NCBI GenBank assembly: GCA_029264305.1
Contig: JARICA010000009.1
Location: 140,971 to 204,970 of the forward strand
From: Faecalimonas sp.
GTDB lineage: Bacteria; Bacillota; Clostridia; Lachnospirales; Lachnospiraceae
Length of the DNA stretch: 64,000 bases
Direction: 5' to 3'
Shown here piece by piece: positions 5,838-18,405 of this stretch. Made by a program: the position numbers and the translations under genes. The notes under the pieces were generated by a model, which saw nothing but the letters and a program-made list of their open reading frames with translations, was not told the DNA's origin and did not search any database. How positions within the stretch are numbered: position 1 is the first letter of the stretch; the number at the start of each line of letters is the position of its first letter.

Positions 5838-5889
5838 GATTGCACCTCCTAACGATATTAATAGCCATAATAGACTCACAACAATAAGT

Positions 5890-5918
5890 ATTTTAGCAGA
5901 AAAATATAAAATATGCAA
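5890..5918 (-). promoter_or_regulatory. SigA-type promoter for rpmB
   Basis: Minus strand TTGCAT-N17-TAAAAT. Confidence 0.5.
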
Positions 5919-5955
5919 GGGTTTATTTTCCTCTTATTTAACTTTTCGGAAAATG

Positions 5956-5984
5956 TTGTAAAAAATGTTGAAACAGAGTATAAT
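5956..5984 (+). promoter_or_regulatory. SigA-type promoter for the asp23-like gene
   Basis: TTGTAA-N17-TATAAT. Confidence 0.6.
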
Positions 5985-6031
5985 ACAAATGTTAAGTATG
6001 TTTAAATCCAGAAAGAATTGGAGGTATAGAT

Positions 6032-6391
6032 ATGAAAGGTAGTATGAGTACAGACTTGGGAATTATTACAATTGATCCAGAAGTTATTGCAAAATATGCA
6101 GGTTCTGTTGCTGTAGAATGCTTTGGAATAGTTGGAATGGCAGCAGTAAATATGAAAGATGGTCTTGTGAGATTATTAAAGAAAGAAAGTCTAACACATG
6201 GAATTCAGGTATATATTTCAGAAGATAATAAAATTACTTTAGATTTTCATGTAATCGTTTCTTATGGTGTTAGTATTTCCGCTGTTACAGAAAATTTAAT
6301 TAGTAATGTAAAATATAAAGTAGAAGAGTTTACAGGTATGTCAGTAGATAAAATAAACATCTACATCGAGGGCGTAAGAGTAATCGATTAG
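6032..6391 (+). CDS. Asp23/Gls24 family envelope stress response protein
   Basis: GIITIDPEVIAKYAGSVAVECFGIVGMA ... VNIYIEGVRV pattern; followed by DAK2 gene as in other Firmicutes. Confidence 0.9.
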   Translation: MKGSMSTDLGIITIDPEVIAKYAGSVAVECFGIVGMAAVNMKDGLVRLLKKESLTHGIQVYISEDNKITLDFHVIVSYGVSISAVTENLISNVKYKVEEFTGMSVDKINIYIEGVRVID

Positions 6392-11842: not shown

Positions 11843-12937
11843 TCAATTACATATTTCTTCTAGACAGTTGAGGAGTCGGTCATTGTCCGCTGGATTCATA
11901 ATGCAAAAGCGAATAAATTCCCCATCTAATCCGGTAAATGTAGAACAGTCACGAATCATTAGTCCATTTTTAATTGCATGGACAAATACATCATTTGAAG
12001 TAAGATTATTTTTACAGAGTTTTAGCAAAATAAAGTTTGCTGTAGGTTCATACACACGTATAAAAGGAAAAGTGTGGAGCCTTTTACAAATACGTTTTCT
12101 TTCAGAAGAAATCAGAGAATGCGTTTTTTGTATGTAATCAGTATCGGAAAGAAGAAGTTCTCCCGCATAAGCGCCTATACTATTTAAACTCCAAGGGTTT
12201 TTAATTTTATTTAATTTTTCAAGAAGAGTGGAATTTCCAGTAATTCCATACCCAAACCGTAAACCCGGTGCTGCAAAAAATTTAGAAACACCACGGAGTA
12301 CAATTAGATTGTCGAAAAGACTTATTAATGGCGTGGCAGTGGTTTCCGTAATATTGTCTACAAATTCTATATATGTTTCGTCAATAATAACAAAAATATT
12401 TCTTTTTTTACAAAAGGACAAAATATTCTTTAGTTGTTCCACATACAAAGTAGTAGAAGTTGGATTGTTTGGGTTGCACAAAATAAATAAATCAATATCT
12501 TTCTCCAATGATGTATATAAATTAGATAAAGAAAAAGAAAAATTATTTTCCGCAGGAAGAGGAAAATATTCTATTTTACCTCCAATAAGTGAAATTTCTT
12601 TTTCGTATTCAGAATAACTAGGAATAGGAAGTAAGACTTTTTTGGGGTTTAAAACTTGGATAAAAAGAGAAATTAATTCTGTACACCCATTTCCGACAAC
12701 AATGTCTTGTGAAGAAACATGACAGTAGGAAGCAATTTTCTTTTTCAAGGAAGCATAATCTCTATCAGGATAAGAAGAAATAATATCAAGATTCTGAGCC
12801 AATTTATTTTTGACATTGGAAGATAAGCCAAGAGGATTTACATTTGCTCCAAAACAAATAATTTCTTCTTGTGGAAGATGAAAATATTCAGCGACCGCCT
12901 CTAAATCACTTCCATGGAATTGAGGTATTTTATTCAT
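11843..12937 (-). CDS. PLP-dependent class I/II aminotransferase (HisC/CobD-like)
   Basis: VNPLGLSS, CNPNNPTST, IDETYIEF, LRGVSKFFAAPGLRFGY; ATG 12937 preferred over track start 13144. Confidence 0.85.
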   Translation of the reverse strand: MNKIPQFHGSDLEAVAEYFHLPQEEIICFGANVNPLGLSSNVKNKLAQNLDIISSYPDRDYASLKKKIASYCHVSSQDIVVGNGCTELISLFIQVLNPKKVLLPIPSYSEYEKEISLIGGKIEYFPLPAENNFSFSLSNLYTSLEKDIDLFILCNPNNPTSTTLYVEQLKNILSFCKKRNIFVIIDETYIEFVDNITETTATPLISLFDNLIVLRGVSKFFAAPGLRFGYGITGNSTLLEKLNKIKNPWSLNSIGAYAGELLLSDTDYIQKTHSLISSERKRICKRLHTFPFIRVYEPTANFILLKLCKNNLTSNDVFVHAIKNGLMIRDCSTFTGLDGEFIRFCIMNPADNDRLLNCLEEICN

Positions 12938-12969
12938 ATAAAGACCACCTTTCTGATTCATATAAAAAC

Positions 12970-12999
12970 TTGCCATAAATGAAATAATAATGCTATAAT
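12970..12999 (+). promoter_or_regulatory. SigA-type promoter for the DUF5717 module
   Basis: TTGCCA-N18-TATAAT. Confidence 0.55.
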
Positions 13000-13012
13000 A
13001 ATTTATTATAGC
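12992..13012. repeat. 21-nt perfect palindrome spanning both divergent -10 boxes
   Basis: GCTATAATAA-T-TTATTATAGC. Confidence 0.9.
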
Positions 13013-13032
13013 GTGAAATTGATGAAATGCAA
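13005..13032 (-). promoter_or_regulatory. SigA-type promoter for the divergent aminotransferase
   Basis: Minus strand TTGCAT-N16-TATAAT. Confidence 0.5.
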
Positions 13033-13064
13033 TGCAAGAAACAAATGAGTAGCAGGTGGATAGC

Positions 13065-16000
13065 ATGAAGAATAAAATTAAGAGAATTTCAAAAGGAGAT
13101 TTTGAAGTAATACAGCCAGACGTACAATTTTCGGAAACCCACATTATAATGCAAATTAGTGAAGGGGAAATTTATCAAGGAAGTTTTACGTTGAAAAATA
13201 GAAAAGACGAGGAGATTCGAGGATTAATTTATCCGTCTTCTTTTCGTATACAATTAAAAAATCAAGGATTTCAAGGGAATCCAGTGGAAGTGAATTATAC
13301 CTTTGATGGAAGTGGAATGAAACCTGGAGATGTGGAAAAAGGAAAATTCACCGTGGTTTGCGATGGAGGAGAGTATGATATAGCATACACTGCAGTGGTA
13401 GAAAAACCATTTGTCATAACGGAATATGGAAAGGTGCAAACACTTAGAGAATTTAAAGAACTTGCTGAAATAGATTATGTTGAAGCTTGGAATTTATTTC
13501 GTTCAAAAAAATTTTCTGAATTATTGAAATATGAAGAAGAAAGAATAGTAGCCCTTTATAGTAATATGAGAAAATGGTCTCTAGATAAACAGGCTTTAGA
13601 AGAATTTTTAGTTTCAAGTAAACAAAAAGAAAGGATTTATTTGCTTTTTCAGGAAGAAGAGGCGATACTCTCTTATTATTCAGAAACAACTAAGGAAACA
13701 ATCGTTTTGACAAAAAACACTTGGGGATATTTGCCAGTGAAAATTTTTGTGGTTGGAGAGTTTTTAAGTGTTGAAAAAAATCAGATTACAACAGAAGATT
13801 TTATTGGTAATGATTATTATTTGGAGTATATAGTTAATGTAGAAAAATTGCATGCAGGATATAATTATGGGAAAATTATAGTAGAAACTCCTTTTGAAAC
13901 AATGGAATATCCAGTAACAGTACGCCAACAATCAATTCATACTGAAAAACATGGAGAAGAAAAGTTAATGTTTGGCTGTCTTTTAAAAAGTTACATGGCG
14001 TGTGTTTCGGGTAACTTGGAAATAAAACAGTGGACAAAACAAGCAGTAGAACTTGTAAAAAAATTACAGGAAATAGCACCGGATAACGAATTTTATGAAT
14101 TGCTTATGGCACATGTATATTTAAGAGGTGGATGTAAAGAAGAAGGGAAATGGCTTTTAGAAAATTATAATTACAATCGTTTTGCTATTGGAAAAAAGAC
14201 AGAACTGGGTTCGTATTATTTGTTTCTAACAGGACTTCTAGCAAAAGATGAGAGTTATATTAAAAAGGTTACAGAAGAATTAAATAAAGCTTATGAAAAA
14301 CATCCTACATCTTGGCAATTGTTATGCATGTTGTTGAATGTAGATTTGAAGTATCGTAATTATAGTGAGAAAATTCGTGTATTACAAAAGCAGTTTTCAG
14401 AAGGGGCGAATCAAATTCCTTTATACATTGAGGCGTATCTTTGTTTTCAAGAAAAAAGTAGTTTGTTGAAAAAAATAGGGCAATTCGAGATGAAAGTATT
14501 AGATTTTGCCACAAAATACCGCATGATTACAAAAGAATTGGCGCTGTATACAGCGAATCTTGCCAGCCAGGAAAAAACTTATAAAGAAAATTTATATCAG
14601 ATATTATCCCGTTCTTATTGTTTGTATCCTGAAAAAATGATTTTAAATGCGATCTGTACATTACTTATCAAAGGAGATAAGAAAGAAAATAAGTATTTTG
14701 TTTGGTATGATAGAGCGGTGACAGCAGGTCTTAGAATTGCAAAATTGTATGAATATTATGTAATGTCTGCTGATAAAGATAGGATGAACAAAGCATTCCC
14801 AAGAACTGTATGGCTATATTTTGTGCATGGAAGTTCTTTGGATTATAAAAATACAGCATTTTTATATGCGAATATATTAACATATGAGGATAAGAAAAGC
14901 AGATTATTTTTAAACTATTTTGAACAAATGGAAAGGTTTTCGTGGAAGCAACTTGAAAAAAGAAGAATTAACGAAAATCTCAGATTATTATATAAGTATT
15001 TCTGTAATGAACCAAATTTAAATATGGAGAGAATGAAAGCTATTTATGATATTTCTCATATATATCTAGTGAAGACAAATGCATCCCATATGAAATATGT
15101 GCTCGTTCTTGAGAAAAATGGCACAATCAGTCAGCGTGTTGCTTATGGAAAAGAAGGAGCGAAAATTTTATTATATCATAAAACGTCACGAATTGTATGG
15201 GAAGCAGATGATGGAAAATTTTATGCAGATTCTATTCAATATGAACTTACAAGGCTTTGTTTTGAGACACAGTTTGTAGAAATGTATAAGGATAAAGAAG
15301 ATTTACTTGAAACAGGCGTGGAAGAAAGTAAAGAAAAATTGACGTTTGAAAATGTAAAAAAATACGGTGTTGATTATTTTGGGGAAGAAAAAGTTTTCCG
15401 TTTATGTAGTAAATGTATTCGGGAAGAAAACAAGGAAAATGATTACCTTACTTATCTCTGTTTTTCTCTTTTAAATAGAGGAGTATACGACAATATGACA
15501 CTTCTTTATTTGGCAAAATATTATTGTGGTGCGACAAAAGACATGAAAAAAGTTTGGAATATTGCAAAAGAATATGGAGTTAAAAGTGATACACTTGCAG
15601 AAAGAATTATTACACAGATGTTATATACGGAAACGATGTTTAATGAAGAAAAATTTTTCATGGATTATTGTAAGGAAAGCAAATGTTCTCATTTAAAACA
15701 AGCATATTTATCGTATATTTCGAATGAATATATTGTAAAATCAAGAGAAATTAAAAAAGAAATTATAGAAGTGATTTTAAATGAATATGAAAAAGGAAAT
15801 GAACTTCCAATAGTATGTAAAATTGCGGTAATAAAATTTTATGCAAGACATTCTTATCCAAAAGAATGGGAAGATAGATTAAAACTATTTTTACAGGAAC
15901 TTTGTGAACAACAACTTATTTTTCCGTTTTATTTGGAGTATAAAGAAAAATGGTTACAGGAAGTTCTGCTTCACGATAAAATTATGATTCAATATAAAGC

Positions 16001-16328
16001 GAAAAAAGCTGGAAAAGTGAAATTATTATATAAAATAGGAAGAGATACTATTGTAGAAGAACTTCAACCTACCTATGCGAATATTTATGTAAAAGAATTT
16101 GTTCTTTTTGAAGGAGAAAGTTTATCATATAGTTTTCAAGAAGAAAAGGGAGAAACTATAATCTACGAAGAAAAGGGAGAATGCAGACAGCGAAAAAAAG
16201 TGGAACCGATTGGAAAATACGGACGTTTAAATGCTATGAATAAAATGGAGAGGGAGAAGCTGGAAAAAGAACTTTTTCAATACTGTTTGGAAGAAAAGAT
16301 GGCAGAAGAATTATTCGAAATATATTAG
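13065..16328 (+). CDS. DUF5717-like large protein (~1087 aa), N-terminal beta/Ig-like segments then long helical repeats
   Basis: Complete ORF, ATG 13065 behind AGGTGG. Family name recalled from Lachnospiraceae annotations, not searched. Confidence 0.65.
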   Translation: MKNKIKRISKGDFEVIQPDVQFSETHIIMQISEGEIYQGSFTLKNRKDEEIRGLIYPSSFRIQLKNQGFQGNPVEVNYTFDGSGMKPGDVEKGKFTVVCDGGEYDIAYTAVVEKPFVITEYGKVQTLREFKELAEIDYVEAWNLFRSKKFSELLKYEEERIVALYSNMRKWSLDKQALEEFLVSSKQKERIYLLFQEEEAILSYYSETTKETIVLTKNTWGYLPVKIFVVGEFLSVEKNQITTEDFIGNDYYLEYIVNVEKLHAGYNYGKIIVETPFETMEYPVTVRQQSIHTEKHGEEKLMFGCLLKSYMACVSGNLEIKQWTKQAVELVKKLQEIAPDNEFYELLMAHVYLRGGCKEEGKWLLENYNYNRFAIGKKTELGSYYLFLTGLLAKDESYIKKVTEELNKAYEKHPTSWQLLCMLLNVDLKYRNYSEKIRVLQKQFSEGANQIPLYIEAYLCFQEKSSLLKKIGQFEMKVLDFATKYRMITKELALYTANLASQEKTYKENLYQILSRSYCLYPEKMILNAICTLLIKGDKKENKYFVWYDRAVTAGLRIAKLYEYYVMSADKDRMNKAFPRTVWLYFVHGSSLDYKNTAFLYANILTYEDKKSRLFLNYFEQMERFSWKQLEKRRINENLRLLYKYFCNEPNLNMERMKAIYDISHIYLVKTNASHMKYVLVLEKNGTISQRVAYGKEGAKILLYHKTSRIVWEADDGKFYADSIQYELTRLCFETQFVEMYKDKEDLLETGVEESKEKLTFENVKKYGVDYFGEEKVFRLCSKCIREENKENDYLTYLCFSLLNRGVYDNMTLLYLAKYYCGATKDMKKVWNIAKEYGVKSDTLAERIITQMLYTETMFNEEKFFMDYCKESKCSHLKQAYLSYISNEYIVKSREIKKEIIEVILNEYEKGNELPIVCKIAVIKFYARHSYPKEWEDRLKLFLQELCEQQLIFPFYLEYKEKWLQEVLLHDKIMIQYKAKKAGKVKLLYKIGRDTIVEELQPTYANIYVKEFVLFEGESLSYSFQEEKGETIIYEEKGECRQRKKVEPIGKYGRLNAMNKMEREKLEKELFQYCLEEKMAEELFEIY

Positions 16329-16345
16329 AAGAAAGAGGGAGAAAG

Positions 16346-17587
16346 ATGCAAAGGGGATATGTGATTGGAGTGGAGTTAAATCATCATACTTGCCAAATAA
16401 GTTATGGTGATGCAGAACAACAAGAACCGAAGACAATAGAGCGAATTCCGCTTGTTATTAGAAAAAAGGAACAAGAATGGATATTTGGAGAAGAAGAGGA
16501 AGAGGGAATTTATGACTTGTTGTCTCTTGCGATGAAACATGAATTAATTCAGGTAGCGGAAAAGACATATGAGGGGGTTTGGTTACTATCTTTATATATT
16601 CAACTTGTTTTGAAACGATTTCAAAATATAGATGCCATCGCATTTACTCTTCCGTATATAGATGAGGACATTGTACATCTTTTAAAAAGTGTTGGACAGA
16701 AATTAGGTGTGTCTAAAGAAAACGTGTATGTACAAGATAATAAAGAAAGTTTTTGCTATTATATGTTTTATCAACAGAAAGAATTATGGCAATATGAATC
16801 AGCGCTTTTTCAGTGTGATGGAAATGGTGTGCAAACGTATATGTTAAAGAAGTTACATATGAAGTGTGAAAATAAACAAGATACATTTATAGTTGTAGAT
16901 GAGGTTGCAAATGTAGATTGGGAAGAACTTTCTATAATATATCCACCGAACAATGAAGAGGAACAAAAGAAAGCAGATGAATATTTTAACCGTTTTATTA
17001 AAAATATTTTTCATAGAAGATTAATTTCTTCTGTCTTTCTAATAGGGGATGAATTTGAAAAAAAATGGTATCCGAATTCTTTAAGAACGCTTTGTAATGG
17101 AAGAAGAGTATTTCAAGGGGACAATTTATATAGTAAGGGTGCGTATTATAGTGTACAATATAAGACGAACGGGAAAAGAAGTAACCTTATTTATTTAGAT
17201 CAAACAAAATTAATGGAACAGATTTGTTTGAAATTTAGAATAAATGGAAGAGACATGTGGTATCCAATTGTACAATGGGGAACAAAATGGTATGAAAATG
17301 ATAGACAATTTGAAATACTTTTGGAAAACACAGATGATATAGAACTTCGCATTGAATCTTTACTAGAAAATTCAATTAGATTTGTGAATGTACCGCTTGG
17401 AAATCTTTCAAACAGAGAAAAATATACATTTCGTTTGCAAGTAAATATTATTTTCCGAGATGAACAAACATGTGTGATTACATGGAAAGATATTGGATTT
17501 GGTAATTTTTTTGCTTCATCAGGATTTCATACGCAAACAGTGATAAAGTTAGGAGGACGAAATGGGAAGTTTAATTCTTTGTCATAG
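16346..17587 (+). CDS. DUF5716-like protein with degenerate Hsp70/actin-like ATPase fold
   Basis: YVIGVELNHHTCQISY (phosphate-1-like), AIAFTLPYIDEDI..., SALFQCDGNGVQTYML (phosphate-2-like), VFLIGDEFEKKWYPNSLRTLCNGRRVFQGDNLYSKGAYY (adenosine-motif-like). Confidence 0.6.
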   Translation: MQRGYVIGVELNHHTCQISYGDAEQQEPKTIERIPLVIRKKEQEWIFGEEEEEGIYDLLSLAMKHELIQVAEKTYEGVWLLSLYIQLVLKRFQNIDAIAFTLPYIDEDIVHLLKSVGQKLGVSKENVYVQDNKESFCYYMFYQQKELWQYESALFQCDGNGVQTYMLKKLHMKCENKQDTFIVVDEVANVDWEELSIIYPPNNEEEQKKADEYFNRFIKNIFHRRLISSVFLIGDEFEKKWYPNSLRTLCNGRRVFQGDNLYSKGAYYSVQYKTNGKRSNLIYLDQTKLMEQICLKFRINGRDMWYPIVQWGTKWYENDRQFEILLENTDDIELRIESLLENSIRFVNVPLGNLSNREKYTFRLQVNIIFRDEQTCVITWKDIGFGNFFASSGFHTQTVIKLGGRNGKFNSLS

Positions 17588-18320
17588 AAAAAAAGCAAAA
17601 CAACCATATGAAATTACGCGAGTACATAAAAAGATCTATACATTAGAGGAACTTTGTTACTATATTTGTAATTTTCTATATTTAGTAGATGAGACATTGA
17701 TTAATAAAAACTTGTGTAAATGGATTGAGGAAGAATTGGAGAAAGAAAATCTTGCGAAACAATTGAATGATTGTTTGAAGTCAAATAGTTCTATGGAACA
17801 ATTTGTATTATATATTTTACGAGATAGTAATATATATACAGCAAAAGAAATTAGTACTATTGAGGGAAGATTGAATCGATTTAAAAATCAGAAAGAAATC
17901 GAAAAGAAAAAATACAAAGCGGATAGTCTTTTGAAAATTGGAGAAATAGAAGAGGCAATTAGAATTTATCTTTCTCTTTTGCAAGAAAATGATGAATCGG
18001 TATCTTCTCAGTTTTACGGGAAAGTATACGGATGTCTCGGAACTGCCTATGGAAGAATTTTTTTATACCAAGAAGCAAGTGATAGATTTTTGTCAGCATT
18101 TCAAATATGCGAAGAAAAATCTATGTTATATGCATATTTATATTGTTGTCATTGCTATATGGATAATGAAGAATATGAAAAACTTTTAGCGGATAATAAG
18201 ATGTTTAAAGATGCAGATAGATTTCTCGTAGAGAAAGAAGAGGCGAAAAAAGCGCAAATTTGTATTGAAAATCCAAAGAATATACTTGATTCATATAAAC
18301 AGGTATATAAGTTTAACTAA
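17562..18320 (+). CDS. TPR-containing hypothetical protein
   Basis: KADSLLKIGEIEEAIRIYLSLL, GKVYGCLGTAYGRIFLYQEASDRFLSAFQI repeats; ATG behind GGAGG, overlaps upstream gene by 26 nt. Confidence 0.65.
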   Translation: MGSLILCHRKKAKQPYEITRVHKKIYTLEELCYYICNFLYLVDETLINKNLCKWIEEELEKENLAKQLNDCLKSNSSMEQFVLYILRDSNIYTAKEISTIEGRLNRFKNQKEIEKKKYKADSLLKIGEIEEAIRIYLSLLQENDESVSSQFYGKVYGCLGTAYGRIFLYQEASDRFLSAFQICEEKSMLYAYLYCCHCYMDNEEYEKLLADNKMFKDADRFLVEKEEAKKAQICIENPKNILDSYKQVYKFN

Positions 18321-18376
18321 TGAATTTGATTTATAATAAATAATGATAGTCAGGGCATATAAGGCAGGTGGAAAGG

Positions 18377-18405
18377 TTGCATTTCTATTTGCCTTGTATT
18401 ATACT
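18377..18405 (+). promoter_or_regulatory. SigA-type promoter for purC-purB
   Basis: TTGCAT-N17-TATACT. Confidence 0.5.

Follow-up and report, generated by a model that had tools for sequence, protein, structure and literature searches.

Introduction

Among the known systems closest to the one analysed here is Ssz1. Ssz1 is a lidless Hsp70 that binds ATP without hydrolysing it, and it is an active, low-affinity chaperone (PMC7083937). It is held by a dedicated partner, the J-protein Zuotin, in the eukaryotic ribosome-associated complex (PMC7083937). In Pfam, the families DUF5716_C (PF18980) and DUF5717 (PF18984, PF18983) carry no function. The open-access literature that we searched held no description of an Hsp70 origin, expanded relatives or a fourth gene for these families, and nothing relevant on an Hsp70-GrpE-vWA operon. 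We regard two points below as new: that related families of the order carry an expanded operon, and that in 43% of Lachnospiraceae a gene for a protein with two transmembrane (TM) segments lies 3′ of gene 3.

Here we analysed a three-gene module in a 64-kb window, meaning the whole stretch of DNA studied. We lean towards reading it as one conserved complex descended by reduction from an Hsp70 operon. A hydrolysis-independent chaperone or peptide holder, similar to Ssz1, would sit on a scaffold, with a membrane tether in those genomes that have the two-TM gene. With this, a gene set that nearly all sampled members of a major gut family carry in single copy gains a testable identity as a reduced Hsp70 system.

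The three-gene locus

Three plus-strand genes begin with an ATG at 13065, closely preceded by a ribosome site, AGGTGG. The open reading frames agree with the initial annotation, including its 26-nt overlap of genes 2 and 3. Together the genes form a block resembling a transcription unit, flanked by a promoter-like site 5′ and a terminator-like hairpin 3′. The common promoter region that had been suggested is matched by the site at 12970-12999, the best of the region. Promoter-like sites number 32 against 30 expected, so this assignment leans on position and match quality. The features are as follows.

12970-12999, +, promoter-like site 5′ of gene 1, TTGCCA-18-TATAAT with extended -10, 11/12 (consensus match only)
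13065-16328, +, gene 1, DUF5717, putative scaffold protein, 1087 aa (PF18984 E 2.6e-206; PF18983 E 2e-83)
13122-13436, +, gene 1, first ASH/Ig-type beta domain, aa 20-124 (predicted strands; Foldseek)
13641-13928, +, gene 1, second ASH/Ig-type beta domain, aa 193-288 (model; Foldseek)
13944-15056, +, gene 1, alpha-solenoid, aa 294-664 (model; Foldseek)
15060-15254, +, gene 1, third beta domain, aa 666-730 (model)
15267-15962, +, gene 1, second helical region, aa 735-966 (model)
15981-16187, +, gene 1, C-terminal beta domain, aa 973-1041 (model)
16346-17587, +, gene 2, DUF5716, degenerate lidless Hsp70, 413 aa (PF18980 E 3e-94; model; Foldseek; tree)
16361-16405, +, gene 2, degenerate phosphate-1 loop VIGVELNHHTCQISY (DnaK IIGIDLGTTNS), about aa 6-20 (alignment)
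17186-17548, +, gene 2, substrate-binding beta domain, about aa 281-401, boundary approximate (model; alignment)
17562-18320, +, gene 3, putative TPR adaptor, 252 aa, with TPR units at about aa 112-190 and a conserved N-terminal domain (L093 homologue)
18357-18399, +, terminator-like hairpin 3′ of gene 3 (consensus match only)

By hydropathy, all three proteins lack TM segments. Structured RNA in the 64-kb window amounts to nothing beyond one tRNA.

Gene 2 encodes a degenerate Hsp70

The first two genes had been likened to DUF5717 and DUF5716, and by score they are full members. Gene 1 reaches 687.7 bits with DUF5717_N (PF18984) and 280.5 bits with DUF5717 (PF18983), against a gathering cut-off of 25. 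Gene 2 reaches 315.7 bits with DUF5716_C (PF18980; cut-off 34.7), and the Hsp70 family PF00012 does not recognise the gene 2 protein above its cut-off. An AlphaFold2 model of this protein, built on a 63-sequence alignment, has a mean pLDDT of 91.3 and a pTM of 0.89. When the model was compared with the PDB, the best 50 matches listed by Foldseek were Hsp70-family structures throughout (E 3.1e-18 down), with TM-scores near 0.5 over two domains that leave the domain angles open. The Hsp70 layout first proposed for gene 2 is thus borne out by the predicted fold.

In the predicted structure, an actin-like nucleotide-binding domain (NBD) with a reduced lobe II is followed by a linker and a substrate-binding beta domain (SBDbeta), the order found in DnaK. 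Alignment to Hsp70 shows that the first lobe is largely retained in the window copy, as are 80/109 positions of the beta domain. The two lobe II segments align at 0/43 and 42/78 positions. Both model and alignment show the protein stopping after the beta domain, with no helical lid (SBDalpha). The DxGFG motif of the beta domain is among the most conserved parts. DUF5716 shares with Hsp70/DnaK its predicted fold, its domain order and, through the intermediates described below, common ancestry, whereas the window protein differs in PF00012 recognition, ATPase motifs, lid and lobe II. It would be an Hsp70 in which the ATPase residues, the lid and some of lobe II have gone, whereas the linker, the substrate-binding beta-sandwich and a good part of the actin-like core remain.

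The word ATPase in the initial annotation finds no support. Across 121 Lachnospiraceae DUF5716 sequences, the equivalents of DnaK Thr11/Thr12, Lys70, Glu171-Pro172 and the GGGT phosphate loop are lost in most to nearly all, depending on the site, and the adenosine loop has lost its second Gly in most or all of them. Of these residues, the window copy keeps one glycine; at the Asp8, Thr11 and Thr12 equivalents it has Glu, His and His. Given these losses, ATP hydrolysis by DUF5716 is unlikely; nucleotide binding is possible. That DUF5716 is a still active ATPase with altered motifs is very improbable. The Asp8 equivalent in 102/121 sequences and the first adenosine-loop Gly in 120/121 would suit such an enzyme, but the equivalents of Lys70, Glu171, Gly196 and Thr199 are lost almost throughout, and the window substitutions point the same way. 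An Hsp70 that has lost its ATPase yet is kept across ~145 genera makes a natural experiment.

DUF5716 is like Ssz1 in lacking both a lid and the residues for hydrolysis. It has lost more of the NBD than Ssz1 has, its proposed partners are an ASH-solenoid scaffold and a TPR protein rather than the J-protein Zuotin, and the ribosome link is a feature of Ssz1. Pfam found no J domain in the proteins of the window module or of the expanded operon in L093. With no J-domain partner found, DUF5716 is not to be placed in the Ssz1 family, nor among canonical Hsp70s, as ATPase motifs and lid were looked for and are absent. The label degenerate Hsp70 is supported.

The module shares descent with an expanded Hsp70 operon

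In other families of the order, we found an expanded operon. It holds DUF5717, three intact Hsp70s (one with a vWA domain), a GrpE-domain protein, a degenerate Hsp70 and a TPR protein. The one-contig genome G472 (L093) begins with DUF5717 and an Hsp70 (PF00012 E 5e-76), followed by a 644-aa protein with a C-terminal GrpE domain (E 3e-13). Next comes a 523-aa intermediate that scores with both DUF5716 (PF18980 E 1.5e-26) and HSP70 (PF00012 E 1.4e-17). After a second Hsp70 (7e-63; weak DUF5716 too) and an Hsp70 with vWA (4.5e-96), the series ends with the TPR protein. This layout recurs in most of 20 inspected order-level regions, with DUF5717 often in two pieces. The GrpE-domain protein was found in 0 of 300 genomes of the phylum outside the order, a search in which positive controls were detected.

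The equivalents of DnaK Thr11, Thr12, Lys70, Glu171-Pro172, Gly196-Gly197 and Thr199 are intact in 18/18 active-type operonic Hsp70s. They are mostly gone in 14 intermediates, of which 10 retain Gly196. This graded series between the expanded operon and the Lachnospiraceae module supports the identity of the latter as a reduced Hsp70 system. In a tree of the operonic Hsp70s, all 15 Lachnospiraceae DUF5716 included group in a single clade with the degenerate Hsp70 from G442 (support 100/99). G442 belongs to another family and still has the expanded operon, with its GrpE protein shortened to 279 aa. Lachnospiraceae DUF5716 shares descent with the order-level Hsp70s. The tree is midpoint rooted, its degenerate Hsp70s do not otherwise form one clade and its deep branches are long, so no weight should be placed on the finer branching order.

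The Lachnospiraceae module looks like a reduced descendant of the expanded operon in which only the degenerate Hsp70 was kept. We infer reduction rather than growth from the intermediates, and from parts present in the order-level proteins that DUF5716 lacks. In G442 (L085:7791-11497, 5863-6231), the GrpE protein is truncated, and the vWA-Hsp70 and TPR genes each seem to be split in two; either decay in progress or assembly errors could account for this.

The Lachnospiraceae genomes checked keep DnaK, and the operonic GrpE and active Hsp70s are absent from them. A PF00012 search of the window genome found DnaK and a short partial match in a 329-aa frame, which we read as MreB-type, but no extra Hsp70. 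This pattern, together with Hsp110/Sse1 and Ssz1 among the Foldseek matches of gene 2, would suit a co-chaperone of the housekeeping DnaK. DUF5716 would then be an Hsp110-like exchange or targeting factor, positioned by DUF5717 and the TPR protein. Hsp110 exchange requires bound ATP and an intact nucleotide site, however, and DUF5716 seems to lack that site. Lobe II, the usual contact of an exchange factor, is also the part that has eroded in DUF5716. We consider the co-chaperone role unlikely.

The module is near-universal in Lachnospiraceae

DUF5716 is present in 145/150 sampled Lachnospiraceae genomes (123/126 of the good ones) and DUF5717 in 147/150, practically always as a single copy. 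The three genes had been proposed as a unit, and synteny agrees. Gene 1 adjoins gene 2 in 117/120 inspected regions, with gene order retained in 117/120, and gene 3 adjoins or is fused to gene 2 in 118/120. Four genomes depart from this: L215 is cut by a contig edge, L255 has its gene 1 on a different contig, L298 lacks genes 1 and 3, and in L246 no gene 3 can be recognised. The 120 regions include L083, which is binned in another family (G591, family f85). L083 carries a Lachnospiraceae-type module on a short contig; the other listed sampled f85 members lack the module, and the contig is probably misbinned. Both DUF5716 and DUF5717 are missing from G029 and G091 (>90% complete), so the module seems dispensable in some lineages.

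Close relatives in a scan of named genomes are Lachnospiraceae where they can be placed, for example Coprococcus comes, [Ruminococcus] torques and Dorea, and these names identify the family of the window (f1) as Lachnospiraceae. Outside Lachnospiraceae, PF18980 matches occur in many, not all, families of the order-wide sample, and neither DUF5716 nor DUF5717 was found outside this order in class-wide samples. A horizontally spread module is unlikely, given the single copy and the lack of any outside the order in class-wide and phylum samples. We also rejected an anti-phage defence system. Among PADLOC models, gene 3 gives a match no better than chance (E 0.007) and the relatives show generic Hsp70 similarity only, and the module is near-universal in Lachnospiraceae.

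Genes 1 and 3 as candidate partners of DUF5716

The gene 1 model has a mean pLDDT of 85.5 and a pTM of 0.54, so its overall shape is unsure. Model and Foldseek agree with the initial annotation on an ASH/Ig-type N-terminus followed by helical repeats. The N-terminal part resembles ciliary ASH/MSP proteins and the SPD-2 domain of CEP192 (Foldseek E 2e-7 to 1e-5), and the solenoid resembles the TPR/HAT superhelices of Ctr9, Prp6 and Ski3. By fold, the tandem ASH/Ig domains of gene 1 resemble those of ciliary and centrosomal ASH-domain scaffolds such as central-pair proteins and CEP192; the match is local (TMq ~0.08) and does not imply a common function. By this architecture of tandem ASH/Ig domains and a TPR-like solenoid, DUF5717 may act as a scaffold. 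The ciliary central-pair structures 7n6g and 7sqc are among the matches of both proteins, gene 1 through its ASH part and gene 2 through its Hsp70 fold. Both ingredients thus come together in these structures too, though this is likely a coincidence.

For gene 3, the TPR units reported earlier score below the Pfam threshold in the window copy. They are clear in its homologue L093:5318-6481 (TPR_2 E 5e-26), and the family profile matches TPRs of the PDB. Gene 3 also has a conserved N-terminal domain that is not TPR. Natural fusions of genes 2 and 3 occur in five genomes among the 120 regions inspected, suggesting that the gene 3 protein binds DUF5716.

A two-TM fourth gene may link the module to the membrane

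A fourth gene lies 3′ of gene 3 on the same strand in 47/120 regions. It encodes a protein of ~395 aa with two hydrophobic segments in mid-protein and charged flanks that we read as a putative coiled coil. Hydropathy gives exactly two segments in 47/47. The gene occurs in 64/150 Lachnospiraceae genomes (43% of sampled genera), in 63/64 directly beside the module (coordinates compared by eye) and in 1/64 on a different contig. Some order-level genomes of other families have it 3′ of their TPR gene as well (L085, L098, L104). No Pfam family scores above cut-off in the example L071:16677-17873, and none of the two-TM genes was found in the window genome. A hitherto unannotated membrane protein can be named as a linked part of the module. 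The complex had been proposed to be cytoplasmic, which tells only part of the story, since 43% of sampled genera have this gene in the operon.

The two-TM gene accompanies 38/86 long forms of DUF5717 and 0/16 short forms (~1090 aa, the clade of the window), a count that leaves out L218, whose ORF was judged truncated. We do not claim that the short form is tied to absence of the gene; the two are confounded by shared ancestry.

A dedicated membrane gene in so many genera, a large ASH/solenoid scaffold in gene 1 and the missing catalytic residues of DUF5716 would all fit a purely structural or sensing scaffold. The pseudo-Hsp70 would bridge DUF5717 and the TPR protein, with the two-TM protein as anchor where present, and bind no client. 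We doubt this reading: strong conservation of the DxGFG part of the beta domain is unexpected in a passive bridge, though compatible with one.

An Ssz1-like holder remains the reading we favour. The module may have a chaperone-like or sensing role, in which it would weakly hold segments of a client or partner without ATP hydrolysis. The TPR protein would bind DUF5716, and the scaffold could be tethered to the membrane where the two-TM gene exists. We count against it that the operon lacks a J-domain protein, that the beta domain could have turned into a mere docking surface, that some lineages seem to do without the module and that the window genome lacks the two-TM gene. More tentatively, the module may be a bacterial counterpart of Ssz1/RAC: a core, membrane-linkable complex around a non-hydrolysing Hsp70, stripped from a multi-Hsp70/GrpE operon in a gut-prominent family.

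Other neighbouring genes

Tandem small proteins of one family (112-144 aa), several with a hydrophobic N-terminus, are encoded within the expanded operon at L103:6111-7853 and L088:12703-13524. Metallo-hydrolase-like genes lie nearby in L088. In the window, a divergent class I/II aminotransferase gene (HisC/CobD-like; 11843-13144, minus strand) lies just 5′ of gene 1. A related aminotransferase gene lies 5′ of DUF5717 in several other genera and in two order-level genomes (L071, L072, L078, L098, L104).
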